From an uncultured Clostridia bacterium (GTDB lineage Bacteria > Bacillota > Clostridia > Oscillospirales > Feifaniaceae), in assembly GCA_944376235.1 (NCBI GenBank), contig CALWCA010000002.1, forward strand, positions 1 to 64,000: DNA of 64,000 nucleotides, written 5' to 3'. Numbering within the stretch: position 1 is the stretch's first letter; the number at the start of each line of letters is the position of its first letter. Below are positions 25,039 to 42,655 of the stretch, one piece after another. Both the position numbers and the translations under genes were made by a program. A model generated the notes under the pieces. It saw nothing but the letters and a program-made list of their open reading frames with translations. It was not told where the DNA came from and did no database searches.

Positions 25039-25082
25039 AAAAGGGGGAGAGCTTGCAAAGGCAAGTTCTCCCCCTTTTTTTG
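25039..25082. terminator. Terminator after the Na/Pi cotransporter gene
   Basis: AAAGGGGGAGAGCTTGC pairs with GCAAGTTCTCCCCCTTT (one G-T pair), followed by a long T-run. It lies between convergent genes. Confidence 0.9.
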
Positions 25083-25141
25083 ACAGTCTTGTTGACGGCG
25101 AGGCTTTTGAAAGGCAAAAACGCCTCCCTGCTCCTGCACCG

Positions 25142-26308
25142 TCAGGGCTCCGATGCGTGCTCCCGAAAACAGCGCGTGGCCTGCAGCAGCTCTTCCAGGG
25201 GTTTGAAGGGCAGATGCCGGCGCAGGGACACCGCAATGTCCATGACGGAGCCCTTTTTCCTCTGCGTCCAGATGCCGCAAACCTCCCCGTGCCGCAGGAT
25301 AACGCCGGGGTTTGACACCGTCTGCCACCCCCGGCGCTGCCAGGCCTTGTCCTCCAAGACGACCTCGCAGTCGGGAAGGCCCAGGTAGGGATCGTGGCCC
25401 TTGAGCAGGTGCATCTCTCGCTGTGCAGGCGGGGGAGAGAGCAGCATGTCAAGGTCGTCGGACAAGACAAAGCGCCGCTTGCCGTCAAGCAGGACGGGCT
25501 CCATTTCGCCTGCGGCGCAGCCCCACAGCCGCTTGGCCTGTGCGGGCGAGCAGCCCAGCCAGGAGATAAAGCCCTGTATACCGGCGGGAGCGTAGCAGTG
25601 GACATAGCTTCGCACCAGCTGGCGTGCCGCGTCCTGCGCCGGGGCGAGCGGGTGGCCCAGCCAGGTCACGGGGGCGGTGAAGGTGGGCTGGCCGGCCTTA
25701 CGTTTTCCAAACACCACCAGCCCCATAAGGGGGCAGGGGCGCAGGAAAAAAGAGACCACGGCGCCGTCCACCGTCTGTCTGTCGGGGGCGCCGTACATGG
25801 AGGGCGCCTCCCACAGGGGACGCTTGTCCTCCGGCAGCCTTGGGGCCATCCAGCCGGCCAGCGTCTGATCGAGCACCGCGTTGCCGCGCAGCGTGACGCC
25901 TCTGAGCTTTGGCATGGTTTGAACCAGCAGTTCGAGCAGCCCGTCAAAGGGGAGCCGCAGAAAGTCAAGAGCCAGTCCGATGCCCTGGGTATAAAGAAAA
26001 GGCTTGCCGGGCTGGGGGAGCAGGGCCGACAGGAACAGGCCGCTTTGCTGTGTGGGAAAGACAACCGGCGCGCCGCGAAAGCTCCAGGCCTGCAGCAGGC
26101 TTTTGTCCTCCTCCAAAATGTGGGCCGGGTTCTGACGCTCCAAATCCCAGATGCGGTTGTGCAGGGCGGCCTCCCAGGCGCCCGGAGGGGAATTTTGAAG
26201 GCCGCAGGCTCCCGCGATGCGCAGGACGTCCTGCCGGCTGTACCAGGTGTCGAGGTGGTGGGCGTGCAGACGAAACAGGCGAACCTGCTGCCGGGAAAGG
26301 GTGAGTAT
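25142..26308 (-). CDS. Winged-helix DNA glycosylase-like protein (AlkZ/YcaQ family), apparent AUA start
   Basis: A 388-residue protein of the HTH_42 group, which includes DNA glycosylases that unhook interstrand crosslinks. Family features: an N-terminal LSRQQVRLFRLHAHHLD, then CGLQNSPPGAWEAAL where the family has its GLQ motif, a WSFRG/TLHL-like segment and wing residues near VTLRGNAVLDQTLAG. The first ATG/GTG/TTG in frame (TTG 26143) would delete this conserved N-terminus. Upstream of it the frame is open to a stop at 26324-26326. The only start-like site is ATA at 26308, with GGAGG (26316-26320) 7 nt before it and a strong promoter 62 bp upstream. So AUA initiation, or an error in one base, is likely. 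Confidence 0.75.
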   Translation of the reverse strand: MLTLSRQQVRLFRLHAHHLDTWYSRQDVLRIAGACGLQNSPPGAWEAALHNRIWDLERQNPAHILEEDKSLLQAWSFRGAPVVFPTQQSGLFLSALLPQPGKPFLYTQGIGLALDFLRLPFDGLLELLVQTMPKLRGVTLRGNAVLDQTLAGWMAPRLPEDKRPLWEAPSMYGAPDRQTVDGAVVSFFLRPCPLMGLVVFGKRKAGQPTFTAPVTWLGHPLAPAQDAARQLVRSYVHCYAPAGIQGFISWLGCSPAQAKRLWGCAAGEMEPVLLDGKRRFVLSDDLDMLLSPPPAQREMHLLKGHDPYLGLPDCEVVLEDKAWQRRGWQTVSNPGVILRHGEVCGIWTQRKKGSVMDIAVSLRRHLPFKPLEELLQATRCFREHASEP

Positions 26309-26369
26309 GGCAAATCCTCCATTTCAAAAGGGTGCAGGGGCAGGCTGCTCCGGAGTGGACAAATAATTT

Positions 26370-26398
26370 ATTATACCGTATGGACAAGGTTTTGACAA
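26370..26398 (-). promoter_or_regulatory. Promoter of the AlkZ-like gene
   Basis: Minus strand TTGTCA (26393-26398) and TATAAT (26370-26375), 17-bp spacing. Transcription would start near 26363, giving a leader of about 55 nt before the proposed AUA start. Confidence 0.8.
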
Positions 26399-26475
26399 AT
26401 GCGTCGCCCCCGAAAGGCCTGGAAGAAGGGGCCGGGGGCAGGCAAAAGAAAATGTTTCCCAAAATGTGAGGACTG

Positions 26476-26484
26476 TGATATAAT
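26476..26484 (+). promoter_or_regulatory. Extended -10 promoter of the PAP2 gene
   Basis: TGATATAAT: a consensus TATAAT (26479-26484) with the extended TG upstream; the -35 (TTCCCA at 26456-26461) is weak. It lies about 90 bp before the start codon. Confidence 0.6.
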
Positions 26485-26574
26485 ATTAAAATAAGAAGGT
26501 GGAGCAGCTCGGGAAAATCAGGAAAAGACCGTCTGTGAAACAGCTTTGGGAAAAAGGAAAGGGGAACGGGACTG

Positions 26575-27096
26575 TTGCTGGAAAAGACGGTTTTGCAGTT
26601 TATTCAGACAAAATTTCGCGGGAGATTTGGAGATGTTGTGATGCCGGCAATTTCGGCCCTGGGAAACGCTGGGGCGATATGGCTGCTGCTCGGGGCGATA
26701 TATATGCTGGTGCCTGGAGGCAGGCGGATGGGTGCAGCCATTTTTGCGGCGCTTGCTTTGGAGCTCTTTTTGTGCAATGTTTTGCTCAAGCCCCTTGTGG
26801 GACGTGCCAGGCCCTTTCAGAGTGACGGGAGCGTATCCCTCCTTGTCTCGTGCCCGGGGGATTTTTCCTTTCCCTCGGGACATACGGGAGCCTCGTTTGC
26901 GGCGGCTGCCGTCATGTTTTTTGCACGGAGCGAGCTGTGGGGATGGGCTCTGGCACTGGCGGCGCTCATCGCCTTTTCAAGGCTTTATCTTTATGTCCAC
27001 TACCCCTCCGACGTTTTGGCCGGAGCCCTGCTGGGCATTTTGGTGGGGTGGATGACCTGGAGATTGTCGGCCTGCCTTGACGGCGTGCTTGTCTGA
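26575..27096 (+). CDS. PAP2-family membrane phosphatase
   Basis: A 173-residue integral membrane phosphatase with all three acid-phosphatase motifs: KPLVGRARP, PSGH (in FPSGHTGASF) and SRLYLYVHYPSDVLAG with the catalytic His-Asp. The family dephosphorylates lipid phosphates such as undecaprenyl pyrophosphate or phosphatidic acid; the substrate here is unknown. About five membrane helices. The best start is TTG 26575, with AAGGGG upstream; no ATG occurs before the conserved region except an internal one at 26641. An 18-bp terminator follows about 140 bp later. Confidence 0.85.
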   Translation: MLEKTVLQFIQTKFRGRFGDVVMPAISALGNAGAIWLLLGAIYMLVPGGRRMGAAIFAALALELFLCNVLLKPLVGRARPFQSDGSVSLLVSCPGDFSFPSGHTGASFAAAAVMFFARSELWGWALALAALIAFSRLYLYVHYPSDVLAGALLGILVGWMTWRLSACLDGVLV

Positions 27097-27233
27097 TGGG
27101 CGGCACAAATCGCGAGAGACAAGACGTGCTTTTGGCCTTCTCATGAGGCTGGGGGCAGCTTTTGAAATTGTCTGGAAAGCGCTGTGAAGGGAAGACCATA
27201 GGGCATTGGCCCTTGAGAGAAACGTGGAAACGG

Positions 27234-27280
27234 AGAAGCAGCCGCAGGCCATTTGCAGTGGCCTGCGGCTGCTTCTTTGT
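27234..27280 (+). terminator. Terminator after the PAP2 gene
   Basis: AGAAGCAGCCGCAGGCCA (27234-27251) is an exact reverse complement of 27259-27276, with a 7-nt loop followed by TTGTCAAAAATTTT. An 18-bp stem; the T-tract is interrupted. Confidence 0.75.
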
Positions 27281-27989
27281 CAAAAATTTTGCGTGGTTTG
27301 CAAAAAACTCTTTGGGAGGCCTGCCGAGCCTCTTGTGACACATCTCTGCAAAACACGGGAAGACGGTTTTGCAATGGGGTTTTGCAGACGATTTCAGAAA
27401 AGCAAGAGAAGTTCTCCGATGCAGGCCTGCGGCGAGGTTGAAACGGCAAAAGGAACAGGATGGACAGCATCATAGGAACTTTGGAAATTTCACCATGCAA
27501 AAAGGTGCGGTGAGGATTTTTCGGTACACTTTGCTTGGCATCAGAGGCCTTGGGGACAAGCGTTTTTTTGTGTTTTTTTAGGAAGCAAGTGAGTTGTAGG
27601 AAGGGCTTGATGGTATCCCACATAGGGGATTTTTGAAAATATTGCAAGATGCTGTTTTTGCATGCAACAGAATATTTTTCTCGATTTTGCAACGATTTTT
27701 TTGTATGATACATGAAAGAATAAAAATAAAAGGAAATTTCGGCTTAGAGAAGCTTCTGCCGCAAAACGCCGTGTTTTTATAACGGTGCATGGAGGGCAGG
27801 CAGCAGGAGAGCCTCCGATGGCCATGAAAGTTAGATGTTGCCGGGGAAGAGCAAAAAACCGGATTTTCGACACCGTGAATCGATGCCAAGGTGCAAAAGC
27901 GGCGGGCCCCAAGACGTCCTGGGCAAGGCGGTTTACGGTAGGGAGCATACATTGATGAGAAGAAACGGGCTGAAAATCCGTATATTTTC

Positions 27990-28020
27990 CCTGTACTGGT
28001 GGGAATCCTATCAGTACGGC
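27990..28020. other. Split palindrome resembling a tyrosine-recombinase core site
   Basis: CCTGTACTGGT (27990-28000) and ATCAGTACGGC (28010-28020) are inverted, matching at 9 of 11 positions, with a 9-bp centre GGGAATCCT. Tyrosine recombinase core sites have two 9-13 bp arms around a 6-8 bp spacer, so the geometry is near. It lies 98 bp before the recombinase gene. No second copy was found in the window. Confidence 0.3.
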
Positions 28021-28068
28021 ACAGCAACGCCCACGGCGGTATTTGCCGCCGTGGGCGTTGCTGTTTTT
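28021..28068 (+). terminator. 19-bp hairpin with T-run upstream of the recombinase
   Basis: ACAGCAACGCCCACGGCGG (28021-28039) and its exact reverse complement (28046-28064) enclose TATTTG and are followed by TTTTAT. It is an intrinsic terminator or attenuator 50 bp before the recombinase start, so recombinase transcription either starts after it or depends on read-through. Confidence 0.8.
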
Positions 28069-28118
28069 ATGATTCCTGGGCAATCACAACAAAACACAAA
28101 AAACAGGAGGTTTACAAG

Positions 28119-28961
28119 ATGACGCGTCAACGAACCTTGCAGCAAATCGAGCGATATGCTCATCATCTTCTTTTAGAAGAAAAAAGTGCGGCCACCATAG
28201 AGAAATACCTTCGAGACGTCCGGGCGTTTGCCTGCTGGCTGGACGGGAGGGAAATCAGCAAGGAAGTCACCTCGGAGTGGAAGAGCCATCTGATCACGCA
28301 GGGCTATGCTCCCGCCACCATCAACGCAATGCTTTCTGCGTTGAACAGCCTTTTGGAATATTTGGGGCTCCAGGAGTGCCGGGTAAAATTTTTGAAGATC
28401 CAGCGCCGCCTGTTTCGGGACGCCGGACGCGAGCTGACCAGGGCAGAGTATGACCGTCTGCTTTCCAGCGCAAAACAACTGGGAAAGCAGCGGCTTGCCC
28501 TGTTGGCTGAGACCATCTGTGCTACGGGCATTCGGGTCAGTGAAGTGCGCAACATCACGGTGGAAGCTGCTCGTCAGGGTAAGGCCGAGATTGCGCTCAA
28601 GGGAAAAATCCGGATCATCCTGCTGCCTGAGAAGCTCTGTCGTAAGCTGCAAAAATACGCGAAAAAACAAAAAATCGCCTCCGGGGCGATATTTCGTACC
28701 AAAGGCGGAAAAGAGCTCAATCGGCAGCAAATCTGGGCCGAGCTCAAGGGGCTTTGCAAATACGCTGATGTAGAGCCGGAAAAGGTGTTCCCGCACAATC
28801 TTCGGCACCTGTTTGCCACAATCTTTTATCAGGCGTGTCGGGATATCGCCAAGCTGGCTGACCTGCTGGGGCACAGCAGCATCGAAACAACGAGGATTTA
28901 CCTCGTGACGTCCGGGGTGGAACATCAAAGGGAGCTGGAACGACTGGGACTTGTATCGTAG
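28119..28961 (+). CDS. Tyrosine recombinase (XerC/D-type integrase), likely DNA invertase
   Basis: A 280-residue site-specific recombinase. Residues 1-100 form the SAM-like N-terminal core-binding domain; the rest is the catalytic domain. The active set is complete: Arg in ATGIRVSEVR, Lys in the KGKIRIILLP beta-hairpin, HxxR in FPHNLRHLF, His in LLGHSS and the nucleophile Tyr in TTRIYLV. AGGAGG lies 9 nt before ATG 28119. No excisionase, phage or conjugation genes are near, which argues against a prophage or ICE integrase. The stop codon is 3 bp from the left arm of a 16-bp perfect inverted repeat enclosing a promoter, so the likely job is inverting that segment, as do adjacent recombinases in other phase-variable surface loci. 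Confidence 0.92.
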   Translation: MTRQRTLQQIERYAHHLLLEEKSAATIEKYLRDVRAFACWLDGREISKEVTSEWKSHLITQGYAPATINAMLSALNSLLEYLGLQECRVKFLKIQRRLFRDAGRELTRAEYDRLLSSAKQLGKQRLALLAETICATGIRVSEVRNITVEAARQGKAEIALKGKIRIILLPEKLCRKLQKYAKKQKIASGAIFRTKGGKELNRQQIWAELKGLCKYADVEPEKVFPHNLRHLFATIFYQACRDIAKLADLLGHSSIETTRIYLVTSGVEHQRELERLGLVS

Positions 28962-28964
28962 CAA

Positions 28965-28980
28965 CAGAATCCACATTCCG
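28965..28980. repeat. Left inverted repeat (IRL) of the putative invertible switch
   Basis: CAGAATCCACATTCCG, an exact inverted copy of 29204-29219. It begins 3 bp after the recombinase stop codon. Confidence 0.85.
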
Positions 28981-29018
28981 TCTTAAAGATCCGATACATA
29001 TGAAAAATCTATAGCAAC

Positions 29019-29047
29019 ATTATATCAATCAAAATTGCGAAAGGCAA
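29019..29047 (-). promoter_or_regulatory. Promoter inside the invertible segment, facing left
   Basis: Minus strand TTGCCT (29042-29047) and TATAAT (29019-29024) with exactly 17 bp between. Transcription would start near 29012 and run left through the left repeat, antisense to the recombinase 3' end. No comparable rightward promoter was seen in the segment. Confidence 0.75.
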
Positions 29048-29125
29048 GATATCTTACGGTTTTTGGGCACAAAAATACAGGCCGCAGTCATATCCATGCA
29101 TTTGCGGCCCGGATTTTTGCGCTTT

Positions 29126-29166
29126 TCCCGCCTTTTTTCCTAAAAAAAGGGGGCGGGCTTTTTTTT
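29126..29166 (+). terminator. Rightward terminator inside the invertible segment
   Basis: CCCGCC (29127-29132) pairs with GGCGGG (29152-29157); the stem is extended by G-T and A-T pairs, and a run of eight T follows. There is no T-run on the other strand, so it acts in the rightward direction only. Confidence 0.85.
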
Positions 29167-29203
29167 ATGCCCTTTTTCAGAAAAGAATCAGGAAAAAACA
29201 ATT

Positions 29204-29219
29204 CGGAATGTGGATTCTG
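29204..29219. repeat. Right inverted repeat (IRR) of the putative invertible switch
   Basis: CGGAATGTGGATTCTG, an exact reverse complement of 28965-28980. It ends 12 bp before the zinc-ribbon ATG at 29232, with AGGGGG in between. Confidence 0.85.
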
Positions 29220-29231
29220 AAATCAGGGGGA

Positions 29232-30380
29232 ATGTCTGTGCGGGAAAGCCTTGATGAATTTTGCATGCGGGAAGGCCGGGGAGAATTGCTGGAGCAATGG
29301 CTGAAAGAAAAAAATTTCCCCATAACGCCAAGGGACATCTCCTACGGAAGTAAGCGTAAGGTCTGGTGGAGGTGCGAGAAGGGGCATGTCTGGCAGGCTG
29401 CGGTATATACCCGAACAGGGAGCGGGGTTGGCTGTCCCTTTTGTGCTGGGAAAATCCCGGTGGCGGGGGAAAACGACTTGGAGACCCGATATCCCGAGCT
29501 GGCCCGCCAGTGGCATTGTGTCCGAAACGGAGAGCTCACGCCAAACCATGTGCTCCCCGGAAGCCACAAATCGGTTTGGTGGGTGTGCGACAAGGGGCAC
29601 GAATGGCAGGCCCAAATCAAATCCCGGGTGGCAGGCAGCGGCTGCCCGGTGTGTGCCAATCGGCAGATCCTTCCGGCCGAGAACGATCTGGCCAGCCGGT
29701 TTCCTGAGATTGCTGCCCAGTGGCATCCGACCAAAAACAAAATGCTTGCCCCCGACATGGTGGCTCCGGGAAGCAAGCGAAAAGTTTGGTGGATTTGCGA
29801 CAAGGGGCATGAATGGAGAACTGTGGTGTTTGCTCGCACATCGGGAGGCAGTGGCTGCCCGGTCTGCAGCGGGAAGCGGGTGCTCGCCGGAGAGAATGAT
29901 CTGGCCAGCAAATTCCCCGACATTGCCGCCCAGTGGCATCCCACTAAAAACGGGACGCTTACCCCGGAGCAGGTCACGTCCTGTGCCAACCGAAAGGTCT
30001 GGTGGATCTGCCCTTTAGGCCATGAGTATCGGGCTGCTGTAGGAGCCCGCACCCAAAGAGGCAGCGGATGCCCCTACTGTGCAGGGAAAAAGGTGCTTGC
30101 CGGATTTAACGATTTGGCCACACTGGCTCCGGCGGTGGCAAAGCAGTGGCACCCTGTGTTGAATGGCAGCCTGACTCCGGAGATGGTCACTCCCGGATCC
30201 CACAGGAAGGTGTGGTGGAGGTGCGGCTTTGGCCATGTGTGGCAGGCGGTGGTTCATTCCCGCACCGGCCCAAGGGCAACCGGCTGCCCGGTGTGTACGG
30301 GGCATGTCAGCCGCAGGCGTCTGGCTTTCTATCGAAGCTTGTCGGCAGGAGCGGAAGAGAAAGAGACGATGCGGCTATGA
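29232..30380 (+). CDS. Zinc-ribbon repeat protein (treble-clef, PF14311-like repeats)
   Basis: A 382-residue protein built of about five tandem repeats of about 68 residues. Each repeat has a KVWW(R/I)C motif, GHEW/GHVW, then GCPxC (CxxC), so four zinc ligands per unit, and ends in an NDLA...AxQWHPxxNG linker. Such repeats occur in bacterial proteins near restriction, mobile or surface loci; their function is unclear, with nucleic-acid binding likely. ATG 29232 follows AGGGGG closely; GTG 29238 has better spacing, and ATG 29208 lies inside the right inverted repeat. It is the first gene after the putative switch and has no visible promoter of its own. Its end overlaps a small ORF by ATGA. Confidence 0.85.
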   Translation: MSVRESLDEFCMREGRGELLEQWLKEKNFPITPRDISYGSKRKVWWRCEKGHVWQAAVYTRTGSGVGCPFCAGKIPVAGENDLETRYPELARQWHCVRNGELTPNHVLPGSHKSVWWVCDKGHEWQAQIKSRVAGSGCPVCANRQILPAENDLASRFPEIAAQWHPTKNKMLAPDMVAPGSKRKVWWICDKGHEWRTVVFARTSGGSGCPVCSGKRVLAGENDLASKFPDIAAQWHPTKNGTLTPEQVTSCANRKVWWICPLGHEYRAAVGARTQRGSGCPYCAGKKVLAGFNDLATLAPAVAKQWHPVLNGSLTPEMVTPGSHRKVWWRCGFGHVWQAVVHSRTGPRATGCPVCTGHVSRRRLAFYRSLSAGAEEKETMRL

Positions 30381-30508
30381 CGACGGGACAATCTCGTTTG
30401 AACTGGGCTGCGGCTCAAAAGGAGCACATATCTTTATCGGACTTGGAAGCATTGAATGCGGCGCAGACGGCGTATCTGGAGTGGAGGCTGGAAACGCCGA
30501 CATCATAG
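30377..30508 (+). CDS. Small ORF between the zinc-ribbon and giant surface protein genes (43 aa)
   Basis: An ATG overlaps the zinc-ribbon stop codon (ATGA), suggesting translational coupling. The product has an ordinary soluble helical look (SRLNWAAAQKEH, DLEALNAAQTAYLEW) and no recognised family. The same frame stays open after the TAG at 30506-30508, up to the ribosome site of the giant gene, so this could be the remnant of a longer gene broken by a stop or a frameshift. Confidence 0.4.
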   Translation: MTTGQSRLNWAAAQKEHISLSDLEALNAAQTAYLEWRLETPTS

Positions 30509-30665
30509 AAAAAGAATTTGAAGCGATGCAGCGATGTGCCGGGACATCTCACGGGCGCGACAGGCGCAGCAGGTGAAACGCCTGTTCAGGCGGCGGGGTA
30601 CCGGCAGGCACAGGTGCTGTCCAACGAAGGCATATCGATGCAAATTCATCAAGGGGGAGCTTGAA

Positions 30666-33600
30666 ATGAAGAAACTGCAGACAAGGGCGATCAGCCTGCT
30701 GCTGAGCCTTGTGATGGTCGCCTCTCTGCTGCCGACCACGGTATGGGCGGCAGACACGGCGTCACCCATCACGCAGGAAGAGTGGAGCAGCAATTATTAT
30801 ACGCCGGCGGAACTGTCGGGCTATTCCTTTGAATATGCCTTTACCATGACAGGCGGAGATGTGGCCTATGCCTATTTCTTAAAACGGGTGCCAAACCCCG
30901 AGGGAACCGGCATGATGAATGAGCGTGTGCTGGTTGTTGCCAGGGACAAAACCGGCACAGATTATACCATACCGGATTACGACTCTGCCGGAGATGCCCC
31001 CTGGGGAGGGGATGCCGACGCCAACAAGTTGTTTATTGAAGCGGGGATCACCGAAATTGGCGCCTACGCCTTCAGCAATATGCCCTCTCTGACCAGCGTG
31101 ACCCTGGGGGATTCCTCCGCCCTGACCTATGTGGGCAAGAGGGCCTTTTCCGGCAATGACCGCGCCGTCTTCACCGACACGAAAAGCGGCGCACAAAACG
31201 TGCTCGATCTCTCCAACGTCACCTCGATGGGAGAGTATGCCTTCGCGTCCTGCGCTAAGCTCACTTCCGTCACGCTGGGCGGCGACATCACCGCCGTGGA
31301 AACAGGGGAGGGCGGAGCCGGCAATGTGGAGACGCAGCACAAGCTTCCCAAAGCAGCCTTTTCCGGCTGCAGCAGCCTGAATACGGTGATTTTTGCAGAT
31401 GAAAGCCGGCTGGAGATCATTGGACAATCTGCCCTTTCCGGCACCGCCCTGACCGGCGTCACCGTTCCGTCAGGGGTCAGGGAAATAGAACAAAGCGCCT
31501 TCTCCGGGCTGTCCAAAATGAACTCTCTCGTCCTGCCGGACAGCCTGGAAACCATTGGAGAAAGGGCCTTCTACTGCAACACGGACGTTCCCAACGAGAT
31601 GCTCAATTCCCTGACCATTCCGGAGCATGTGAAGACGATTGAAAAGGAGGCCTTTTGCAACTTCAAGTCCCTCAGCGAGGTCATCGTGGAGTCGGAGGTG
31701 CTGGAAGACGTAGAGGAGGCTGCCTTTGGAAACGGCACCCACAATGCTTACAGCGCCATGCAAAATGGGGTTTTGGTGGGGGCGCAATTCAAAACTCCAA
31801 GCAGCGATATTTCGAAAAAATTTGAAAACAACTACAATTGCTACATGGGCGCCATCAGCCCTCTCACGCTGATCAAGGAGCAGTCTTACCCTGCAAACTG
31901 TGAGAAGGACGGAAAGAACGTCTACTCCTACGAATTCAACGGGGAAAAGAAAACCCTGGAGGAAAGGCTCCAGTCCACCGGGATTCATAAAATCAATCAG
32001 GTAACCGTTTCGGCCACCTGTACGCAGGATGCCTACTATGAGGTGACTTGCGACAACCATTATGAACAGGATCAGGACGGAAACTGGATTCAAACGCCGC
32101 ACACCCATAAAATTGCCATCAACAGTGGCCAGAGCGGCTATGAGCCGGCCCGCAAACACAGCTATGCCTTTACCGAATTTTCCAGCGGCGACGGAAAGCT
32201 CGACGCCACGCAGGGGGTGACCATTGTCTACACCTGCCAGAATGGGGAAATTCATGATGACGAGGTGGACAGGCCAAACAGGGTGTTTTCGCTGACGCTG
32301 CCCAAACTGACCCGGCAGCTGACGGGAACCACCGCCTCCGGAGCCCTTCGCAACACACTGGCCAGCGTCTCGCTGCCCGTCATGGCCGATGCCAGTGGCC
32401 CCATGGGCGCTCTGACATGGAAGGATCCGAATCAGGTTTTGGATTATCAGGAAGGCGTGCAGTATTACACAGCCGTCTTTACCCCAGACGAAGTCCGCTA
32501 TGTCAACACGGACGGCCTGCCCTCAGTGGAAATTCAAGTTGGCGTCAAGGTGAATAAGGCGGCTTTGAATTTCTATAATGTGCGGTTCAAATATGCTTCC
32601 GTCAATGTGGATCCCGCTGCGGTGTCCGGCATCAACATCGAGGTGGCGTATGCTCCTGACGGAGCCCAAATAGAGCAGTATCTCTATACCGGGCAATACA
32701 ATGGTGCAGAGAGCTACACCGGGTCGCAGGCCCCGGTGCGCAACCGGCTGTTTGAGGGGAAGGTTGAGGTCACGTTCGGTTATGACTCCAACGTATATAC
32801 CCTGTCCGGCGGCACCGAGGAGAGCGGGTATACCGTGGATACGTCCCAGCCCGGGACAGTAAAGATCTCCCATGCCTACAGCATCGTCAAGCCCACGATG
32901 GACAAAGTGCGCTACTCCATTTTTCCTGGGCTGAGGTATAACGGCACGGCCCAAAAGACAATTCATCTGAGCGAGGTGCCCTCGGGCTCCAAGGTGGAGT
33001 GGACCTGGGTTATGATTACAGACGGCGCGGGCAATCCGGCGTCCGGCGTGCAGGGCAGCGGTGTGCTGGAGGATTCCGGGAGCACCGGACAGTGCGATGT
33101 GGCAGAGCTTACGCAGGCGGGAAGCTACCGCGTCAGCATTGTCGTCAGCAACGACGAGGGACAGTACGAGGACTACAAGGTCGACAACATCCCCGTCACA
33201 ATTGACCGCTGGGAGCTGGCACAGCCTGTGGCGGCAGAGGGCCTGGTGTATACCCCGGAAACGGTGCAGACCGGCGTCATCGACTCCAATGCCGTGCTTC
33301 CCGATGATGCGGTTTATACCATTTCCGGACATCGTCAAACCGATGCCGACAGGTATACAGCCCTTGCCGTAATTGCCGACGAACACATTGCAAATTACTG
33401 CTGGGCGGGACAAGACGGCAACTTAGTCAGCATTCCCTGGAGCATCGGGAAGCGCTCGGTTCTGCCGCCCTCCTATACCATCGGCGGCAGCGAGCGGACG
33501 TATAATGCAGCCTATGTCATCGCCGTAACGGGTCCAACCGGCACGCTGTTTGAGTATGAATACGATGAGGGCTCCGGCGTTGCTTCCGGCTATTATGGAC

Positions 33601-36600
33601 AGGGGCGCACGGACGAGTACAAGGCCTTCACGGTAAGCTATGCAAAAATGAAGGATGCAGGCACCTATGCCCCGGCTGCCACGCTGACCGACAGCAGCAA
33701 CTATGCGTGGCTTCAGGACAACCAGCAAATCGCCGCCGAGTCGATTTCGCTGGGTAAGGCATATACCATTGTCAAAGCCGCCCTCACGGCACCCTCCCTC
33801 ACGGCAGACAACGCCGAGTATACCGGGCAGCCCTATGACGAGGACGCAAAGATCCACAGGGGCGAAGACCCTCACATGCTGGGCAGCGATTCCTTTGCCT
33901 TCGTAACGTATCAATACTATGCTTCGGGCATCGACACCCCTTCGGACACTCCTCCTGTCAACCAGGGGAGCTATACGGTGGAGGCGGTGTATGACTACCC
34001 GCACCAAAACTACCGCCTGACCGATTCCGCAGGCACTGCCACCACCGAGGCCGTCACACGGGCAGGATTTCAAATTACCCCGATCACCCTGACGTTTGAC
34101 GATGTGTCGGACACAAGGTCCTATACCGGAGCCCCCCAGGCAGTACCCGTGCCGACGCTGAAGAATCCCGGCAGCCTGGTGGCGGATGAGGAGTATACCC
34201 TGGTCTACAGCTACTCAGTGGAAGACAAAAACGGGCAAATCACGCAAATCACGGGGGAAGATCCCCTGACCTTTGAAGAGGTGGGCAGCTACACCGTCAG
34301 CGTCCAGGTGAAGAGCGGCACAAATTACACCTCGGATACCTGCACCTCCACGCTGACCATTGTTCCTGCAGAGCAGACCGTGACCCTGACGCCGGAGAAG
34401 GGCATGAGCTGGGATTTGGGCTGCGATGTGCCCGGCAGCTATCAAATGACGGCAGGCCTGAAGGACGGCGGCTTTACCGTGAGCGCCTCCAGCACCGTGC
34501 CTCAGGAGGGCGGTACCTTTGACGTGTCCGATCAGGTCGGCTACAGCCATCAAAGCGACAACCCCTCTGTGGCGCAGGCTGACAGCACCGGAAGGGTGAC
34601 AATCAAAGGAGCGGGGAGAGCGGTTGTCACCGTAACCGCCTCGCCGAGAGACCAGGAGCATCCCAACATCCTGGGAAGCACCGCTTCTTATATCCTGATT
34701 GTGGAAAAAGCCAGCCCAACCATTGACACCAGCGCCTATGCCGAAGGAAAATTTGAGGCCCGTTATACCGGAGATCCCATTGAAGGATATGTCAAGGCCA
34801 GGCTGTCCGGCGTGGCGGGGATTGATCCCGTTGGAGAGCTGACCTATACCTTTTACAGCGATCCCTCCTGCACGCAGGAGGTTTCCAACGGAGGCGGAGC
34901 CAGCAAAAACATTCCCGTCGGGGTGGGCGACTACTACCTGAAAGTCTCTTATGCCGGCGACCAAAACTATCTTCCCGCTTCGTCTGCCGTCGTTTCGGTC
35001 AGGGTGACAAAGGCCGGTTTGGACGGTCTTGTGAGCGTTGAGGGCTATTCGGAGAGTTACGACGGCCGGCAGCACTCCTTGAAGGAGCAGCAGGTCACGG
35101 TGGAAGGATTTTCCTCCGATGAGTATACGGTTCGGTATGCAGGCAGCGCCACTCAGCCCGATGCAGGCGATAGCTCTCTTTGGGCAGAGGATGTCACCGT
35201 GAAAAATGTGGCCGACAGCACAGGCGAAAGTACGAGATACTGGTATATGGTCACAATCCGCGACGGCAACTACGAGCCTGACATCGGAGAAATCCGTGTT
35301 GACATCACGCCCTGCGAGCTGAACGTGGAGCATGTGCCGGATTCTTTCAGGAAGGAATATGACGCGACCACCGACGTCACAACGCCTCTTGCCGACATTT
35401 CCGTGACCGGGGTTGACGGCGAGGACATCATGGTCTCGCCCAGCGCCTTCTATGACGACAAGAACGTCGGCGATGGGAAACAGGTCACACTGGAGCTCTC
35501 ACTGGAGGGCAGCGGCATTGTGTGGGGCAACTACAGCTACAAAAACATCCCCCTCACCCAAGGCAGCCTGACCCTGACCGAAAATACCGGCAGCATCACC
35601 GCAAGGGAGATTGCCGTCACTGGAGGAATTGCCGCCCAAAACAGGGTGTATGACGCAACCAGGGTCGTCGCGCTCACAGGCAAGCCTGTCACAGATGGCT
35701 TTGCACAGGCGGACGTGGCGGCAAACGCCGTTTCCTTTAGGGAAATCTCATCGGAAACCGGCACCGTTGCCGACGCCGATGTGGGTGACGGCAAAACCGT
35801 CACCGTATCAGCCGAGACGCTCAACTCCCTGCTCGACGGCGACGCCAGCGCCAACTACACGATTCGTACCGACTACACCGGGGCAGCCGTGGACATCGAT
35901 GTCCGTCCTGTCGCTCTCCTGTTCCCCGGGGAAACGACGCATGACCCTGATTGGAGCGCCCGGGTGCCTTACGACACCGAAGGGCTGACCGCAAGCCCCG
36001 ACGTCTACAGGGCGAAAGCCGCGCCTGCAGACGACAGCTCCGGGCTTGTGGGCGGGGATGCCCTCGGGGAGGGGGACATCACCTATCTCTTTACGGACGA
36101 AGGCTTCGCCACGGTGGAAAACCCCACCGATCTCGGCCGGTACACCGTTGCCGCAAAGCTTGCCGATGAGGCAAAGGACAGGTTTTCCAACTATGAAATC
36201 CTCCCGATTTCCGGCACGGTTGAAATCATCCAGAACGCGGATGCGCTGACCGTGGCCGTCACGCCGAAGAGAGGCCTTGTCTACAACGGACTGGGGCAGG
36301 ATCCCGTTGAGAGCGTCACGGTCCAGGGCGGCAGCCGCCCTCTGACAGAGGGCGCCGACTACACCATTTCCTATTCGCTGACCGAGGGCGGCAGCTACGC
36401 CCTCACTCCGTCACAGCTGACCGAGCGGGTGAAAGACGCCGGCAAATACACCGTTTATTGGAAGGTTGTCACCACCAATTATGGCCATCGGGAAGGCAGC
36501 TTTGAGGTTGCCGTTGAGCGGGCGGAGCTTTCGCTTGACAGAGACATTTCGCCTGTCAAGACCTACAACGGCGACGAGGCGGCAGATGGGCAGGTCACAA

Positions 36601-39600
36601 ATGTGAGGCTGACCGGTCAGAAGGAAGAGGAAGACATCCGGGCAGAGCCCGCCGGCGCGGCGTATGACAAGGCAGGGGTAACGGCAGAAAAAATCACCGT
36701 GACCTATTCCCTTATCGCCCGGGGCGGGGCAAAGCTCGAAAATTACAAGGTCAGCATCCATGGCGCCCCGGCGGAGGATGCGCAGACATCCATGACCGAG
36801 GAGGTCAAGGCCTCGATCACCGCAGCACCGGTCGAAGTGACCATTCAGAATCAGAGCGACGTATACGACGGCGGGCTGCCGGAAGTGGAGCAGGGCCTCT
36901 GGAGCGCCGACGGCACCGTTTATCCGGGGGATGACCTCAAGGTTGTACTGAGCGTTGCGGAGGGAGCCGTCAACGTGGGCAGCTATGACATCACCGGCAC
37001 GGCGGACAATGAAAATTATCAGGTGACATTTAGAAAGGGAAGCTTTGAGGTTACTCCCCGCAGCGTGGCCGTTGCCATCGACAGCGCTAAAGGAACCTAC
37101 GGAGATGTCCCCGAGTTAAGCGGCGTCAAGCTGAGCTATCAGCCGACCCAGGGCGAAGAGGGGCTTGCCCCCAATGAAAGCAGCATCGCCGGGATTTCTC
37201 TGCAGGCCGTAACCCGGGCTGACGGCGGCACGGCGGTGGACGGAAAAACCGGTATCGGAACCTATGTGATCGTCGGGACCGACAACAGCGAAAACTATGA
37301 CATTGCGTTTGACAACGGCAGCTACACCGTGGAGAGACGGCCCGTGACCGTGACCATCGCCAATAAGGGCAGCCTTTACGGGCAGGACATCGCAAAGCTG
37401 ACCAGCTCTGTAACGTCCGGCAGCATGGCCAACGACGAGGATCTGGATATCGTGCTGGAAACCGACGCCGTCAAGGGAAGCGATGCAGGTCTTTATGCCA
37501 TTTTCGAGGAGTCCCGCAACGAAGAGGTGGCTGACAATTATGAGGTCACGGTGATTGGTGAGACGGCGTTTGGCGGGGAAGCCGATCGTGGCACCTACAC
37601 GGTTGGGAAGGCCAGCCTGAGCGTGTCCTTCAAAAGCGCGGTGCTCTATCCCAACTTCGGACGTCCCGTGACCAATCCCGTCACCTTTTCAAATGCCAGC
37701 GTAAGCCCCTACGAAACGGTTGCGGACGACGAAGATCTGAGAGCCATCGCACAGGCGTCCCGCTATGAGTCCAGCAATCCCGGCGCCGTGAGGGTGGACC
37801 CTGTCACAGGAGAGGTAACGCTGCTTGCCGCAAACGCCACGGCCAACATCTTCCTGACGGTGGGCGACACCAAAAACTTCCATCCCGTCACGGATCCCGC
37901 CGTCTACACCATCAATGTGGGCAGCGCCGGCGGCTACCAGCCCAACTTCACGCCCGGCACCCTGACCTACAACGGCGAGCAGCAGCAGCTGATGACCATG
38001 AACGGCACCCTGCCGGCGGGGCTCTCCATCCGGTACAGCACGGACAGCAGCACCTGGGAGAGCGACATCGCCAAGATCACGGGCATCAATGCGGGCAACT
38101 ACACCGTGTATTGGGAAATCAGCGACGCCCTGGGCAACTACGGCGATTCCAACGGCGTGGTGTTTGTCACCATCGCCAAGGATATTTTAGAGGATCAGGA
38201 GGGTTTTGTCTCGTCTTCTCCCTCCATCGTGTTTTCGCACTACGAGGGCAGGCCCTATGAAAACCCCCTCAGGCTTCCGGGAGATTACACGGGCAGCGTT
38301 GCATTTCAGGGCAGCAACGACACGGTGGCCACCGTGCAGGAGGATGGAACGGTCACGGTTCTGCACAACGGCACGGTGACAATCACTGCCACCTGTCCCT
38401 CCGACGACAACTATCAGGGCCGTCAGTATCGCTACACTCTGACCGTTGCAAGCTCCCAGATTGACTACACCAGCCCCACGCCCCTGAAAGGCGTCTACGA
38501 CGGCACGCAGCAGGCGAGCCTGACCGTGCCGGTCACATCCTCCACTGCCGGAGCGGTTGTCCGTTACGGTGTGAATACCGGCGGCCTGTCCTTCCCGGAG
38601 GAAACGGTGCCCAAAATCAGGGATGCCGGCACCTATGAAATCTGGTATCAGGTGACGGCCGCCGGAGGCTACGCCACGGTGGAGGATTTCGTCACCGCCG
38701 TCATTTCTCCCAAAGACATTGACCAAGCTATGGTTGCAGGCATCTCTGATTCCTACACATACAGCGGCAATAAAATCACGCCTCTTCCCGTCGTGACGGA
38801 TCGGGAGCTGCAGCGCAAGCTGACTCCCAATGTGGACTATACCCTGGCCTATGGGGAAAATACCCAGGTGGGTACCGGCAGCGTTACCATTGCCGGCATG
38901 GGCAACTACGGCAGCTCCGTTTTGCAAAGCTTCCGTATTGAGGCCGTCGGCGGGAGTGAAATGACGGCTTCCCTGAGCGAGTATTTCGGCAGCATGGACC
39001 AGCATCCGTCGGGCACTCAGACAACGGTCAGCGTCACCCACGGAAGCCATGATGTGGGCTTTGTCATCACCGACGTGAGCCCATCGGCCACGGTGGAAGA
39101 CGACGGCGCCACCCTTTCCTTCACCGACCCCGGTGTGTATACCATCACGGTAAAGGCTGGGGACGACGTCCATGCCGAGCGGCAATTCCGCCTGACCTAC
39201 ATGCTCATGCCCAAAACCAGCGAAGGCGGCTTTGTCCTGACCTTTGACGACAGCGACACCCGGGTGGTGACGTTCGGCCAGAGACTGATCCCGCAGGGGA
39301 TGACCGCCGGGGAAATGCTGAAGGTAACGGCCGGAGACGGAAGCCTCCTGACCCTTGGCGCCGACTACACCCTGAGCTGCATGTATTATGACTGTCTGGG
39401 CAGCGCCGGCGTGTCCCTGACGCAGGCAGAGGAAATTCCACAGGCAGGCATGTATGTCGTGACAGCGACCGGCACAGGCCAATACGGCAGCGATCAGACC
39501 GGAGTCTTCACGTTGCTGGTGCTCCAGAAAAACATCGGGGAGGACGACATTGTCTGGAGGGTGGAGGACGACGCCCTGGTGTATCAAGCCGCAGCCCAGA

Positions 39601-41576
39601 CCCCCGACGTGGCGGAGGGAACCTTTGTCGACGAGGCGGGCACAACGCAAGGGGTGGACTTTGTCGTGGACGACTGGCAGAACAACGTCAACGCCGGCGT
39701 CGATACCGCGAGAGTCATCGTAAAGGTGCCGGCCGGCAGCAACGACTACACAGGCACCGCCAGCATTGCCTTCTCCATCGGCAGACGGCCGCTCGTCGAT
39801 GACGAGGCCAAATTCACCGTCACCGTCCCGGGCTCGGTGAGCATCTCCGAGGGCGGCGAGGCCCGTCCTGCCGTGAGCATCTACGACAGGGAGCTGCAGC
39901 GCGAGCTGACCAGCCAGGATTTTGCCGTGATCTATGAGAACAATACCTCGGCAGGCACGGCCGCCGTTCTCATCACCGGTACAGGCAATTACGACACCGG
40001 CACCGAGATCCGCAAGACCTTCACGGTGGTAATGACCGGGACCGATTTTGAAATGGACATCACGCCGGGAAAAACCTGGGTTTACGGTGAGATGGGAGCC
40101 ACGGACATCACAATCACCTCGGGCACCGGGACACTGACAGTGGGAACCGACTATATCCTGTCGATTTCCAAGAACGGCGAAGCGCCGCAAAGCTTCGAGG
40201 ACACCGCGCTTGCCCTGGCTTTTTTGGACAAGCCCGGCACCTATACGGTAAAGGCCGTCGGCACCGACAGCTATTCCTTTACCAAGGCCGATACCGTCAC
40301 CATCGAAAAGGCAAAGCTGGATCTGGAAATTTTGGTGACCCCCAGCCTGAAAGCGGGTGCTGGCACGGCCGCAATCCAGGTGACGCCGGGCACATGGCCC
40401 GACGGCATAAACGGCACCTGTCTCACCAAGCTGACCCTTTCCAGGGACGGTGCTGCAAAGGAAAGTCTGGCGCTGGAATATGATGAATCGGCAAAGGCGT
40501 ACCAGGAGGTCTCCTTCTCCTTTGCCAACGAGACGGCGGAATATACCTTTGGTGTGGACACTGCCGAAATCCCCGGCTTTGATCTGAGCTGCTATGAGCT
40601 TTTGATCGACGGCGGCACTCTGAAGACGGTCAGGCAGACCGGCGGAGGAGGCGGAGGCGGTGGAGGTGGAGGAACCGTTACCTACACCATTACCGCCAGC
40701 GCCGAAGAGCACGGCTCGATCAATCCCGCCGGCAAGGTCTCCGTGGTGGAGGGGGAGGATGCGGCCTTCGTGTTTGCCCCGGACAACGGGTGGCAGGTGG
40801 CCGAGGTGCTGGTGGACGGTGTCAGCGCAGGAGCCTTGGGCAGCTACACCTTTAAAGAGGTCAGCGCAAACCACACCATCTCCGTGAGTTTTGAGGAAAG
40901 CCTTTCCATTGCCGACCCGAATGATACCGGCGTTTCCGACTGGCTGATAACCCAAGACCACATCCGCTATCTGGGCGGCTACGGACAGGGCCTGTTCGGT
41001 CCCACGGACAACCTGACCCGCGCGCAGGCGGCACAGATATTCTACAACCTGCTGCTGGATCGGGATGTGGCAGTGACCGTCAGCTTCACCGACGTGCCGT
41101 CCGGGGCCTGGTATGCCCGGGCTGTCCATACCCTGGCCTCCCTTGGCATCGTGCAGGGTGTGGGCGACGGCCGCTTTGAACCTGAGAAGGCGATCACGCG
41201 TGCGGAATTCACTGTTATCGCCATGCGCTTTGCCCGTCCGAAGTCTGTTGACACCGATATTTTCCCCGATGTGAAGCGTGAGGACTGGTTCTATGACGAG
41301 GTGGTCAGCGCCGTTTGCTACGGCTGGATCAACGGCTATGCGGACGGCACCTTCCGGCCTCAAAACAACATTTCCCGCGCGGAGGTTGCCGCAATCACAA
41401 ATCGCATGCTTGGACGCATGGCAGACCAGGCCTTCGTGGACGGACATGTCGACGAGCTGACCCGGTTTACCGATGTAAGCCCTTATTACTGGGCATATTA
41501 TGACATCATGGAAGCCGCCAACGCCCACGACGTTGCAAAAGAAAACGGCACAGAGCGCTGGACCGGGCTTCGCTGA
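30666..41576 (+). CDS. Giant SLH-domain cell-surface protein with BspA-like LRRs and MBG/YDG repeats
   Basis: A 3,636-residue secreted surface protein. In order: a signal peptide (to about Ala28, cleavage near VWA-AD); BspA-type LRR_5 repeats (about 125-350, e.g. IGAYAFSNM, VGKRAFSG, IEQSAFSGL); a very long array of beta-sandwich repeats of MBG/YDG/Ig-like type (about 600-3200, recurrent YTIVKA, YDATxxV, GxYTV motifs); an 11-glycine linker (about 3327-3337); a bacterial repeat domain; and three SLH domains (about 3420-3610, e.g. NLTRAQAAQIFYNLL) that bind pyruvylated wall polymer. ATG 30666 has GGGGAG 6 nt upstream. LRR and MBG arrays suggest adhesion or a stalk. It lies downstream of the zinc-ribbon gene with no strong promoter in between, so the invertible promoter may control it. 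Confidence 0.93.
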   Translation: MKKLQTRAISLLLSLVMVASLLPTTVWAADTASPITQEEWSSNYYTPAELSGYSFEYAFTMTGGDVAYAYFLKRVPNPEGTGMMNERVLVVARDKTGTDYTIPDYDSAGDAPWGGDADANKLFIEAGITEIGAYAFSNMPSLTSVTLGDSSALTYVGKRAFSGNDRAVFTDTKSGAQNVLDLSNVTSMGEYAFASCAKLTSVTLGGDITAVETGEGGAGNVETQHKLPKAAFSGCSSLNTVIFADESRLEIIGQSALSGTALTGVTVPSGVREIEQSAFSGLSKMNSLVLPDSLETIGERAFYCNTDVPNEMLNSLTIPEHVKTIEKEAFCNFKSLSEVIVESEVLEDVEEAAFGNGTHNAYSAMQNGVLVGAQFKTPSSDISKKFENNYNCYMGAISPLTLIKEQSYPANCEKDGKNVYSYEFNGEKKTLEERLQSTGIHKINQVTVSATCTQDAYYEVTCDNHYEQDQDGNWIQTPHTHKIAINSGQSGYEPARKHSYAFTEFSSGDGKLDATQGVTIVYTCQNGEIHDDEVDRPNRVFSLTLPKLTRQLTGTTASGALRNTLASVSLPVMADASGPMGALTWKDPNQVLDYQEGVQYYTAVFTPDEVRYVNTDGLPSVEIQVGVKVNKAALNFYNVRFKYASVNVDPAAVSGINIEVAYAPDGAQIEQYLYTGQYNGAESYTGSQAPVRNRLFEGKVEVTFGYDSNVYTLSGGTEESGYTVDTSQPGTVKISHAYSIVKPTMDKVRYSIFPGLRYNGTAQKTIHLSEVPSGSKVEWTWVMITDGAGNPASGVQGSGVLEDSGSTGQCDVAELTQAGSYRVSIVVSNDEGQYEDYKVDNIPVTIDRWELAQPVAAEGLVYTPETVQTGVIDSNAVLPDDAVYTISGHRQTDADRYTALAVIADEHIANYCWAGQDGNLVSIPWSIGKRSVLPPSYTIGGSERTYNAAYVIAVTGPTGTLFEYEYDEGSGVASGYYGQGRTDEYKAFTVSYAKMKDAGTYAPAATLTDSSNYAWLQDNQQIAAESISLGKAYTIVKAALTAPSLTADNAEYTGQPYDEDAKIHRGEDPHMLGSDSFAFVTYQYYASGIDTPSDTPPVNQGSYTVEAVYDYPHQNYRLTDSAGTATTEAVTRAGFQITPITLTFDDVSDTRSYTGAPQAVPVPTLKNPGSLVADEEYTLVYSYSVEDKNGQITQITGEDPLTFEEVGSYTVSVQVKSGTNYTSDTCTSTLTIVPAEQTVTLTPEKGMSWDLGCDVPGSYQMTAGLKDGGFTVSASSTVPQEGGTFDVSDQVGYSHQSDNPSVAQADSTGRVTIKGAGRAVVTVTASPRDQEHPNILGSTASYILIVEKASPTIDTSAYAEGKFEARYTGDPIEGYVKARLSGVAGIDPVGELTYTFYSDPSCTQEVSNGGGASKNIPVGVGDYYLKVSYAGDQNYLPASSAVVSVRVTKAGLDGLVSVEGYSESYDGRQHSLKEQQVTVEGFSSDEYTVRYAGSATQPDAGDSSLWAEDVTVKNVADSTGESTRYWYMVTIRDGNYEPDIGEIRVDITPCELNVEHVPDSFRKEYDATTDVTTPLADISVTGVDGEDIMVSPSAFYDDKNVGDGKQVTLELSLEGSGIVWGNYSYKNIPLTQGSLTLTENTGSITAREIAVTGGIAAQNRVYDATRVVALTGKPVTDGFAQADVAANAVSFREISSETGTVADADVGDGKTVTVSAETLNSLLDGDASANYTIRTDYTGAAVDIDVRPVALLFPGETTHDPDWSARVPYDTEGLTASPDVYRAKAAPADDSSGLVGGDALGEGDITYLFTDEGFATVENPTDLGRYTVAAKLADEAKDRFSNYEILPISGTVEIIQNADALTVAVTPKRGLVYNGLGQDPVESVTVQGGSRPLTEGADYTISYSLTEGGSYALTPSQLTERVKDAGKYTVYWKVVTTNYGHREGSFEVAVERAELSLDRDISPVKTYNGDEAADGQVTNVRLTGQKEEEDIRAEPAGAAYDKAGVTAEKITVTYSLIARGGAKLENYKVSIHGAPAEDAQTSMTEEVKASITAAPVEVTIQNQSDVYDGGLPEVEQGLWSADGTVYPGDDLKVVLSVAEGAVNVGSYDITGTADNENYQVTFRKGSFEVTPRSVAVAIDSAKGTYGDVPELSGVKLSYQPTQGEEGLAPNESSIAGISLQAVTRADGGTAVDGKTGIGTYVIVGTDNSENYDIAFDNGSYTVERRPVTVTIANKGSLYGQDIAKLTSSVTSGSMANDEDLDIVLETDAVKGSDAGLYAIFEESRNEEVADNYEVTVIGETAFGGEADRGTYTVGKASLSVSFKSAVLYPNFGRPVTNPVTFSNASVSPYETVADDEDLRAIAQASRYESSNPGAVRVDPVTGEVTLLAANATANIFLTVGDTKNFHPVTDPAVYTINVGSAGGYQPNFTPGTLTYNGEQQQLMTMNGTLPAGLSIRYSTDSSTWESDIAKITGINAGNYTVYWEISDALGNYGDSNGVVFVTIAKDILEDQEGFVSSSPSIVFSHYEGRPYENPLRLPGDYTGSVAFQGSNDTVATVQEDGTVTVLHNGTVTITATCPSDDNYQGRQYRYTLTVASSQIDYTSPTPLKGVYDGTQQASLTVPVTSSTAGAVVRYGVNTGGLSFPEETVPKIRDAGTYEIWYQVTAAGGYATVEDFVTAVISPKDIDQAMVAGISDSYTYSGNKITPLPVVTDRELQRKLTPNVDYTLAYGENTQVGTGSVTIAGMGNYGSSVLQSFRIEAVGGSEMTASLSEYFGSMDQHPSGTQTTVSVTHGSHDVGFVITDVSPSATVEDDGATLSFTDPGVYTITVKAGDDVHAERQFRLTYMLMPKTSEGGFVLTFDDSDTRVVTFGQRLIPQGMTAGEMLKVTAGDGSLLTLGADYTLSCMYYDCLGSAGVSLTQAEEIPQAGMYVVTATGTGQYGSDQTGVFTLLVLQKNIGEDDIVWRVEDDALVYQAAAQTPDVAEGTFVDEAGTTQGVDFVVDDWQNNVNAGVDTARVIVKVPAGSNDYTGTASIAFSIGRRPLVDDEAKFTVTVPGSVSISEGGEARPAVSIYDRELQRELTSQDFAVIYENNTSAGTAAVLITGTGNYDTGTEIRKTFTVVMTGTDFEMDITPGKTWVYGEMGATDITITSGTGTLTVGTDYILSISKNGEAPQSFEDTALALAFLDKPGTYTVKAVGTDSYSFTKADTVTIEKAKLDLEILVTPSLKAGAGTAAIQVTPGTWPDGINGTCLTKLTLSRDGAAKESLALEYDESAKAYQEVSFSFANETAEYTFGVDTAEIPGFDLSCYELLIDGGTLKTVRQTGGGGGGGGGGGTVTYTITASAEEHGSINPAGKVSVVEGEDAAFVFAPDNGWQVAEVLVDGVSAGALGSYTFKEVSANHTISVSFEESLSIADPNDTGVSDWLITQDHIRYLGGYGQGLFGPTDNLTRAQAAQIFYNLLLDRDVAVTVSFTDVPSGAWYARAVHTLASLGIVQGVGDGRFEPEKAITRAEFTVIAMRFARPKSVDTDIFPDVKREDWFYDEVVSAVCYGWINGYADGTFRPQNNISRAEVAAITNRMLGRMADQAFVDGHVDELTRFTDVSPYYWAYYDIMEAANAHDVAKENGTERWTGLR

Positions 41577-41854
41577 CTCAACAGGAAGGCATGGCAAAAC
41601 TGGGGACACAAGGGGGGCATCACCCCCCCTTGTGCTTGGCGGTAGACATGTCTTCAAGGGGCTTGTGTTTTAAGCAGAGGGCATACGGCGCTTTTTGCCA
41701 TGCGCAGGAATGCCGATGGGGATTTTCCGCATTAAAAACAGGCAGGAAATTTTTGAATTTCCTGCCTGTTTTGCTTCGGGGATCTTATGTGCTTATCCGC
41801 GACGCCCCTTTTGCCTGCTTTTGCTGGGCTTTCGGGCCTTGCAGCTCCACGCAG
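41577..41854. other. Intergenic region after the giant surface gene
   Basis: No gene seen. It holds a perfect 11-bp G/C hairpin (CACAAGGGGGG at 41607-41617 with CCCCCCTTGTG at 41624-41634, no T-run) and the strong terminator at 41735-41772. The rest shows no recognisable signal. Confidence 0.6.
41735..41772. terminator. Bidirectional terminator between the surface gene and the ABC operon
   Basis: AAAACAGGCAGGAAATT (41735-41751) is exactly complementary to 41756-41772 with a TTTG loop. A/T flanks on both sides allow function on either strand; the genes are convergent. Confidence 0.92.
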
Positions 41855-42655
41855 CTACTCAAGATTGAGATGATGGGTGAGGGTGTATTTTGTAATCAGG
41901 AAGTAGATCCCGCAATAAAGGAGGCAGCAGAAAAGAAGGGAGAACATCCCGGCGTGGATGGAGGCGACCGGCTCCAGAGCTTCGATGGGAAGCTGAGAGA
42001 GCAGGTATGCCAGCAGGTGGCCGATGAGCTGGGATGCCATGAGCAGGACGAGGAATGCGGCAAGGCTCATGAGGATGCGGTGCTTTTGAAAGCAGTGCCC
42101 CAGGGCGATGGACGCATAGACCATCAGAATGCAAAGCGACATCCCGGAGAGGACGAGCAGCACGCCCTCGACAGTCCAGAGCACAGCGTGGGGGGCGTAG
42201 CCCTCGGGAAAGGTTTTGAAAAAATCAAACAGGGAGGAGAAAAAATGTGGGAGAAAGCGCATCTGCGCCGTGAGAATGATTGTGGCTAAAATTTCCACGA
42301 CGAAGCTGGAAAAAAACCAGACAATCGAGGTAATGAGCTTTGCCGCAATGTTTTGGCTTGCCGTGACAGGCAGGGTAAAGGAGATGTAGCCCTCGTCGCC
42401 CAGCAGATTTTTCTGAAATCTCTGCGCCATCAGAAAGAGCGTGATAAAGCCGACGGCAAAGGTCAAAAGCCCAAAGGCCGTCCCCAGGGCTACGGCGATG
42501 AAATTGAGAAGGCCATGATGGGCCATACCGTTTTGCACGAACAGGGACGACATGGACAGCCTTGTGAGAAGGGCGATGACCAGAAGGGCGGCATACAGGG
42601 GGAGCATGGTGCGGCGGGTGGCGCGCAGCTCGTATTTGATGAGTTTTCCTAACAT
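41855..42655 (-). CDS. ABC transporter permease (ABC-2 type)
   Basis: A 266-residue protein with about six hydrophobic helices, starting MLGKLIKYELRATRRTM, the usual cytoplasmic entry of YtrC/ABC-2 type permeases. It has no catalytic motifs. It overlaps the upstream ATPase gene by 7 bases, so the two form one exporter. With the GntR regulator upstream this resembles the cell-envelope-stress ytr operon of Bacillus; the substrate is unknown. Confidence 0.85.
   Translation of the reverse strand: MLGKLIKYELRATRRTMLPLYAALLVIALLTRLSMSSLFVQNGMAHHGLLNFIAVALGTAFGLLTFAVGFITLFLMAQRFQKNLLGDEGYISFTLPVTASQNIAAKLITSIVWFFSSFVVEILATIILTAQMRFLPHFFSSLFDFFKTFPEGYAPHAVLWTVEGVLLVLSGMSLCILMVYASIALGHCFQKHRILMSLAAFLVLLMASQLIGHLLAYLLSQLPIEALEPVASIHAGMFSLLFCCLLYCGIYFLITKYTLTHHLNLE

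Follow-up and report, generated by a model that had tools for sequence, protein, structure and literature searches.

Bacteroidales capsule promoters are invertible. In Clostridioides difficile, a recombinase-driven inversion involving RecV switches CwpV, a very large cell-wall protein (PMC2784873, PMC5903667), and a 2025 survey of a defined gut community tied Clostridia inverton group 139 to tyrosine-type invertase group 35 and recorded flipping in sequencing reads (PMC11892184). The group 139 member of Intestinimonas butyriciproducens has 14-bp repeats with 227 bp between them, according to the printed coordinates, and its orientation changes in reads (PMC11892184). Here, a tyrosine recombinase locus was analysed in a window of 64,000 nucleotides (the whole stretch of DNA under study, from an uncultured bacterium of the Clostridia). 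Judged from the DNA sequence, positions 28119-29219 very probably form a phase-variation switch that operates by promoter inversion. A recombinase-driven promoter switch had already been proposed in an earlier, sequence-only reading of the same DNA, and it is supported by repeats that travel with the recombinase family, by the fixed place of the promoter, by the occurrence of both orientations at homologous loci and by segments inverted between colinear flanks.

Layout of the recombinase locus

The sequence-only reading had described a complete tyrosine recombinase gene ending at position 28961; the open reading frame coordinates were exact and both Pfam domains were found (Table 1). The catalytic set is complete (R139, K163, H226, R229, H252 and Y261), its six residues are invariant across 11 aligned family members, and the protein is the sole copy of its family in the assembly. 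The locus thus has a recombinase with a full active site (R-K-H-R-H-Y) close by, as looked for in an inverton, the gene ending 3 bp before the left repeat. An identity as a XerC or XerD chromosome-dimer recombinase failed, as both NCBIfam equivalog cut-offs were missed (128.8 bits against 329.6 for XerD, TIGR02225, and 114.9 bits against 335 for XerC, TIGR02224). The solved structures nearest by sequence are XerC-like, XerD and XerA proteins. On the 5' side of the gene, positions 27097-28118 comprise about 1 kb of non-coding DNA with perfect hairpins at 27234-27276 and 28021-28064, to which the folding z-scores near -5.7 in this stretch are largely due. The presence of a known RNA in this upstream stretch was also considered and set aside, there being no Rfam match at threshold and almost no conservation of the sequence in relatives.

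The two inverted 16-bp copies reported at 28965 and 29204-29219, with 223 bp between the arms, proved complementary at 16/16 positions, and they delimit the short repeat-bounded segment characteristic of an inverton (28965-29219). The left site is an imperfect palindrome with an asymmetric centre (ACAGAAT-CCAC-ATTCCGT), and the sites of relatives share this architecture, with ACAGAAT or ACATAAT followed by about four central bases (N4) and then ATTCTGT or ATTATGT. When the whole 1.54-Mb assembly was searched for sites with up to two mismatches to the repeat, these two were the only ones found, and the chance of such a repeat pair near a gene end was put at about 1e-5 in a back-of-envelope estimate.

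Inside the segment, the leftward TTGCCT-17-TATAAT promoter of the earlier reading was located on the minus strand with TG before the -10 element, and the one-way T8 terminator facing right was recovered as a hairpin followed by a T tract. The promoter is the only sigma-70-like match in 27700-30700, and none was called in 29220-30700. In the sequenced copy it faces the recombinase, lies 54 bp from the segment edge ahead of it, and so supplies the outward-facing promoter looked for within an inverton. By itself the match is no better than chance in a 3-kb region (1 found, 1.6 expected); its weight comes from its conservation across relatives, its position being retained family-wide, and not from the match alone. 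The cargo-facing terminator should stop transcripts that run on from the recombinase gene in the OFF state. The first conserved hairpin, which may be a bidirectional terminator, also occurs at four related loci (L054, L034, L033 and L059) and, in inverted form, at a fifth (L036).

Table 1. Features of the recombinase module and its putative invertible segment (window coordinates)
Feature	Position	Strand	Description
14.8-kb block holding the entire module	27081..41855		No counterpart in L180 (G002), the nearest genome of the same genus that has both flanks
Tyrosine recombinase (invertase) gene	28119..28961, stop included	+	280 aa; PF00589 2.7e-26, PF02899 8.6e-10 (Pfam)
Putative invertible segment, repeats included	28965..29219		255 bp; sequenced copy read as OFF orientation
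Left recombination site (putative)	28965..28980	+	CAGAATCCACATTCCG; 16/16 inverted match to 29204-29219
Promoter (predicted)	29019..29047	-	-35 TTGCCT 29047-29042, 17 bp, extended -10 TGnTATAAT, hexamer 29024-29019
First conserved hairpin	29079..29112		GGCCGCA...TGCGGCC; T runs on either side
Intrinsic terminator (predicted)	29127..29168	+	Hairpin 29127-29157, 12-bp stem, then CTTTTTTTTA; faces cargo
Right recombination site (putative)	29204..29219	-	Exact inverted copy of left site; 16/16 complementary arms
DUF4379 protein gene, first under the putative switch	29238..30380	+	PF14311 2.2e-105; five treble-clef zinc-finger repeats; probable GTG start
Giant secreted surface protein gene	30660..41576	+	About 3638 aa; BspA-type LRR, YDG, MBG and Ig-like repeats, two SLH domains

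Repeats, promoters and orientations across the recombinase family

Relatives of the recombinase were gathered from whole genomes of the order, a second genome collection, plasmids and IMG/VR, and their flanks were retrieved. The sequence-only reading had recommended that the segment be compared in related genomes, and this comparison showed that a repeat-bounded segment accompanies the recombinase family. Of the 67 loci with sufficient downstream sequence (a set that includes some near-identical paralogues, so that not all loci are independent), 59 carry inverted repeats directly after the recombinase, with arms of 14 bp or longer and a spacing of 150-350 bp. Such repeats turned up in 0 of 335 dinucleotide-shuffled windows, in 1 of 241 distant windows and in 2 of 64 upstream windows. 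Some of the eight loci without good repeats retain recognisable, diverged sites, and the repeats also occur in the majority of the closer IMG/VR relatives whose downstream sequence is long enough. The best sigma-70 score was at least 10.5 in 42 of the 59 segments, against 8.8% of shuffles, and the -10 element lay 35-75 bp from the segment edge that it faces in 43 of the 59 loci, against 13.5% of shuffles. Terminator-like hairpins opposed to the promoter direction numbered 42, versus 14 in shuffles, and those in the promoter direction 31, versus 13.5. Taken together, the promoter and terminator counts describe a design resembling a promoter with, behind it, a read-through block whose effect depends on orientation.

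Some loci depart from the simple plan. Three recombination sites, and not two, were seen at L065, L066, L075, L076, L041 and L184, where nested segments are possible. One genome (G042, loci L083-L092) holds 15 copies of the recombinase family, and most of the copies that were fetched have a repeat-bounded promoter segment, five of these segments being 100% identical; the segments precede pilin-like (N_methyl) genes, which are conserved at the 5' end and variable over the rest.

A single fixed orientation in all relatives had been named as an observation that would speak against a switch. A clear promoter was present at 44 loci after deduplication; it is directed at the recombinase in 30 of them (OFF, the state of the window copy) and at the cargo in the other 14 (ON). 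All evidence for inversion comes from comparisons between loci or species, and the clearest case is a pair of paralogous loci in one genome (L057 and L058), in which the recombinases are 90% and the downstream regions 78% identical and both are colinear, and the segments are 81% identical only when one is inverted, positions 1506-1765 matching 1766-1507 exactly from repeat to repeat. A comparable relation was found within the DUF4379 subgroup to which the window belongs. In Butyricicoccus pullicaecorum ET57 (L036), the promoter faces the cargo, and the segment aligns with that of the window only if inverted (score 25.5 versus -9.5); its alignments with the segments of L054, L033, L034 and L059 are likewise better when inverted. 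Opposite orientations within one species were sought through IMG/VR and dismissed, the identical or near-identical contigs being oriented alike throughout. Contig ends at recombinase 3' ends, considered as a sign of mixed orientation, were given little weight, since the cases in G013 and G042 are explained by near-identical paralogues. Contigs of G040 and G093 end at a recombination site, and a reading of contigs C11 and C12 of G093 as the two flanks of one segment was dropped as ambiguous.

Cargo, a possible accessory slot and the history of the module

The first gene after the right repeat was assigned to DUF4379 (PF14311), with 345 bits against a gathering score of 24.5 and five copies of the domain. 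An ATG does lie 12 bp past the right repeat with AGGGGG in between, as had been described, but its proposed role as start codon is probably wrong. The AGGGGG (29225-29230) ends one base short of ATG 29232, too near to serve as a ribosome site, which makes this an unlikely start. The same motif has a 7-nt spacer to the in-frame GTG 29238, which aligns with the start of the L054 orthologue (MRESLHDFC) and is probably the true start. Compared with solved structures, the DUF4379 protein matched only mitoribosome proteins of the trypanosome type (6sga, 7aor), which hints at RNA binding. The giant SLH gene that follows is taken to be the second gene of the switched unit, co-transcribed with the DUF4379 gene.

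Across the family, the first and second genes past the far repeat include surface proteins (SLH, LRR_5, Flg_new, Cna_B and VWA), N-terminal-methylation pilin-like proteins and polysaccharide genes (Wzz, sugar transferase, Polysacc_synt_2). Seven loci have a DUF4379 gene immediately past the repeat (the window, L054, L033, L034, L036, L059 and L070), its frame being broken in L033 and L034. A recombinase paralogue takes the first position after the switch at L035, L043, L051 and L055, and recombinases occur as a tandem pair at each of L038, L040, L046 and L049. The paralogues at these loci keep the N-terminal DNA-binding domain and are without the first HxxR histidine, the GH motif and the catalytic tyrosine, that of L035 being shortened besides; from these sequences they are predicted to be catalytically dead. 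Other first genes encode AP2-like or helicase-associated repeats, a sigma factor and a weak TetR match. This range of genes suggests that the slot behind the switch is used for regulators of the switch or of its cargo. A more specific proposal, which we put forward only tentatively, is that this slot may encode a dedicated accessory of the switch, which would be produced exclusively or chiefly in the ON state and could feed back on the direction or rate of flipping or on expression of the giant cargo.

The sequence-only reading had presented the combination of switch, zinc-ribbon gene and SLH giant as undescribed. This did not stand for the mechanism or for the SLH or other surface cargo, which are already known or the norm in the family; it did stand for the arrangement led by DUF4379, which appears to be undescribed within the literature searched, a full-text search on DUF4379 having returned no paper that describes such a switch.

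The module appears to have been gained and lost as a unit, given its patchy presence in the genus and a nearest relative elsewhere. The closest same-genus genome in which the two flanks are retained aligns to window positions 20899-27080 (87%), 46280-50741 (75%) and 51033-54625 (86%) and, in inverted orientation, to the 4.3 kb adjoining the block (41856-46124, 78%); nothing in it aligns to 27081-41855. A close relative of the recombinase is absent from two of the three other same-genus genomes, and the nearest relative (81% identity) belongs to another family of the order. A 504-kb plasmid of Pusillibacter faecalis typed as conjugative (pMM59_01, L181) carries the recombinase together with an annotated SLH protein, a location that offers a possible route for the patchy spread of the recombinase-SLH module.

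Proposed switching, alternative readings and known systems

In the proposed mechanism, the tyrosine recombinase would bind both sites and invert the 255-bp segment. In the sequenced orientation, the promoter would fire leftward into the recombinase 3' end with the terminator facing the cargo, leaving the DUF4379 gene and presumably also the SLH giant silent. That the window copy represents the OFF state, as had been proposed, is borne out by the direction of its promoter and by the ON-type locus of B. pullicaecorum in the same DUF4379 subgroup. Inversion would bring the promoter to about 29137-29165, facing the DUF4379 gene, with a transcript start near 29172. The ON transcript would then cross the right site, meet the DUF4379 ribosome site some 60 nt later and could run into the SLH gene, the terminator now being directed away from the cargo. 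We infer that the window copy would still flip today, through the recombinase encoded beside it.

It was also considered that a formerly working switch is now locked OFF in this lineage because its recombinase is no longer expressed or active. This species is known in a single orientation, the broken DUF4379 genes of L033 and L034 are as expected of cargo that stays OFF, and repeats have diverged at some family loci. In the window, however, the repeats are fully identical, the recombinase is full length with every catalytic residue present, and the DUF4379 and 3638-aa SLH reading frames are open, making a locked relic improbable. It is more doubtful still that the recombinase is the integrase of a 14.8-kb island, with the repeats as its attachment sites and no promoter switch. 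The two sites enclose 223 bp within the island, are inverted and not direct, and take the same place in 59 loci; the segments contain oriented promoters; and no direct or inverted repeat of at least 11 bp joins the island ends, for which reason this reading was disfavoured even though the block is missing from the closest same-genus genome and relatives occur in unrelated neighbourhoods, one of them on a conjugative plasmid. Least credible of all is the view that the repeats are mere regulator-binding or RNA-structure elements flanking a fixed intergenic promoter and terminator. Each repeat is palindromic, like an operator site, but the asymmetric centres are retained in inverted orientation, and homologous segments occur in opposite orientations, with the flanks colinear and the breakpoints at the repeats, which refutes this view at the family level.

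With promoter inversion as the preferred reading, the loci would represent an order-wide family of self-contained switches in gut Clostridia, each comprising a recombinase, two sites, one promoter and an opposing terminator; the apparent targets of these switches are giant S-layer-associated proteins, pilin-like proteins and polysaccharide genes. As the orientation is readable from ordinary sequencing data, surface variation in uncultured gut bacteria would become directly measurable, and the recurrent first gene of DNA-binding type poses a testable question, that of feedback control of inversion.

The mechanism is already known; the new detail is that the first controlled gene is often of a nucleic-acid-binding type, dead recombinase paralogues included. 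Among the closest described systems is inverton group 139 with invertase group 35 (PMC11892184), which is likewise from Clostridia with an adjacent tyrosine-type recombinase. The two were compared by geometry, which matches, and the switch family of the window is probably the Clostridia inverton and invertase family described in 2025 (PMC11892184). A plasmid of Streptococcus dysgalactiae encodes a homologue with 35% identity, annotated as PsrA, which also lies beside its target; unlike the streptococcal PsrA invertase, which rearranges hsdS coding sequence (PMC4948785), the window system would invert a promoter. As in the invertible promoters of Bacteroidales (PMC8748976), a promoter in a repeat-bounded segment would govern adjacent, often surface, genes, although the repeats, the promoter type and the phylum are different. 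In its arrangement the locus resembles CwpV/RecV of C. difficile, with a tyrosine recombinase, a short repeat-bounded segment and a giant surface protein, but whereas RecV acts on several switches (PMC5903667), the window recombinase lies directly upstream of the only site pair in its assembly.
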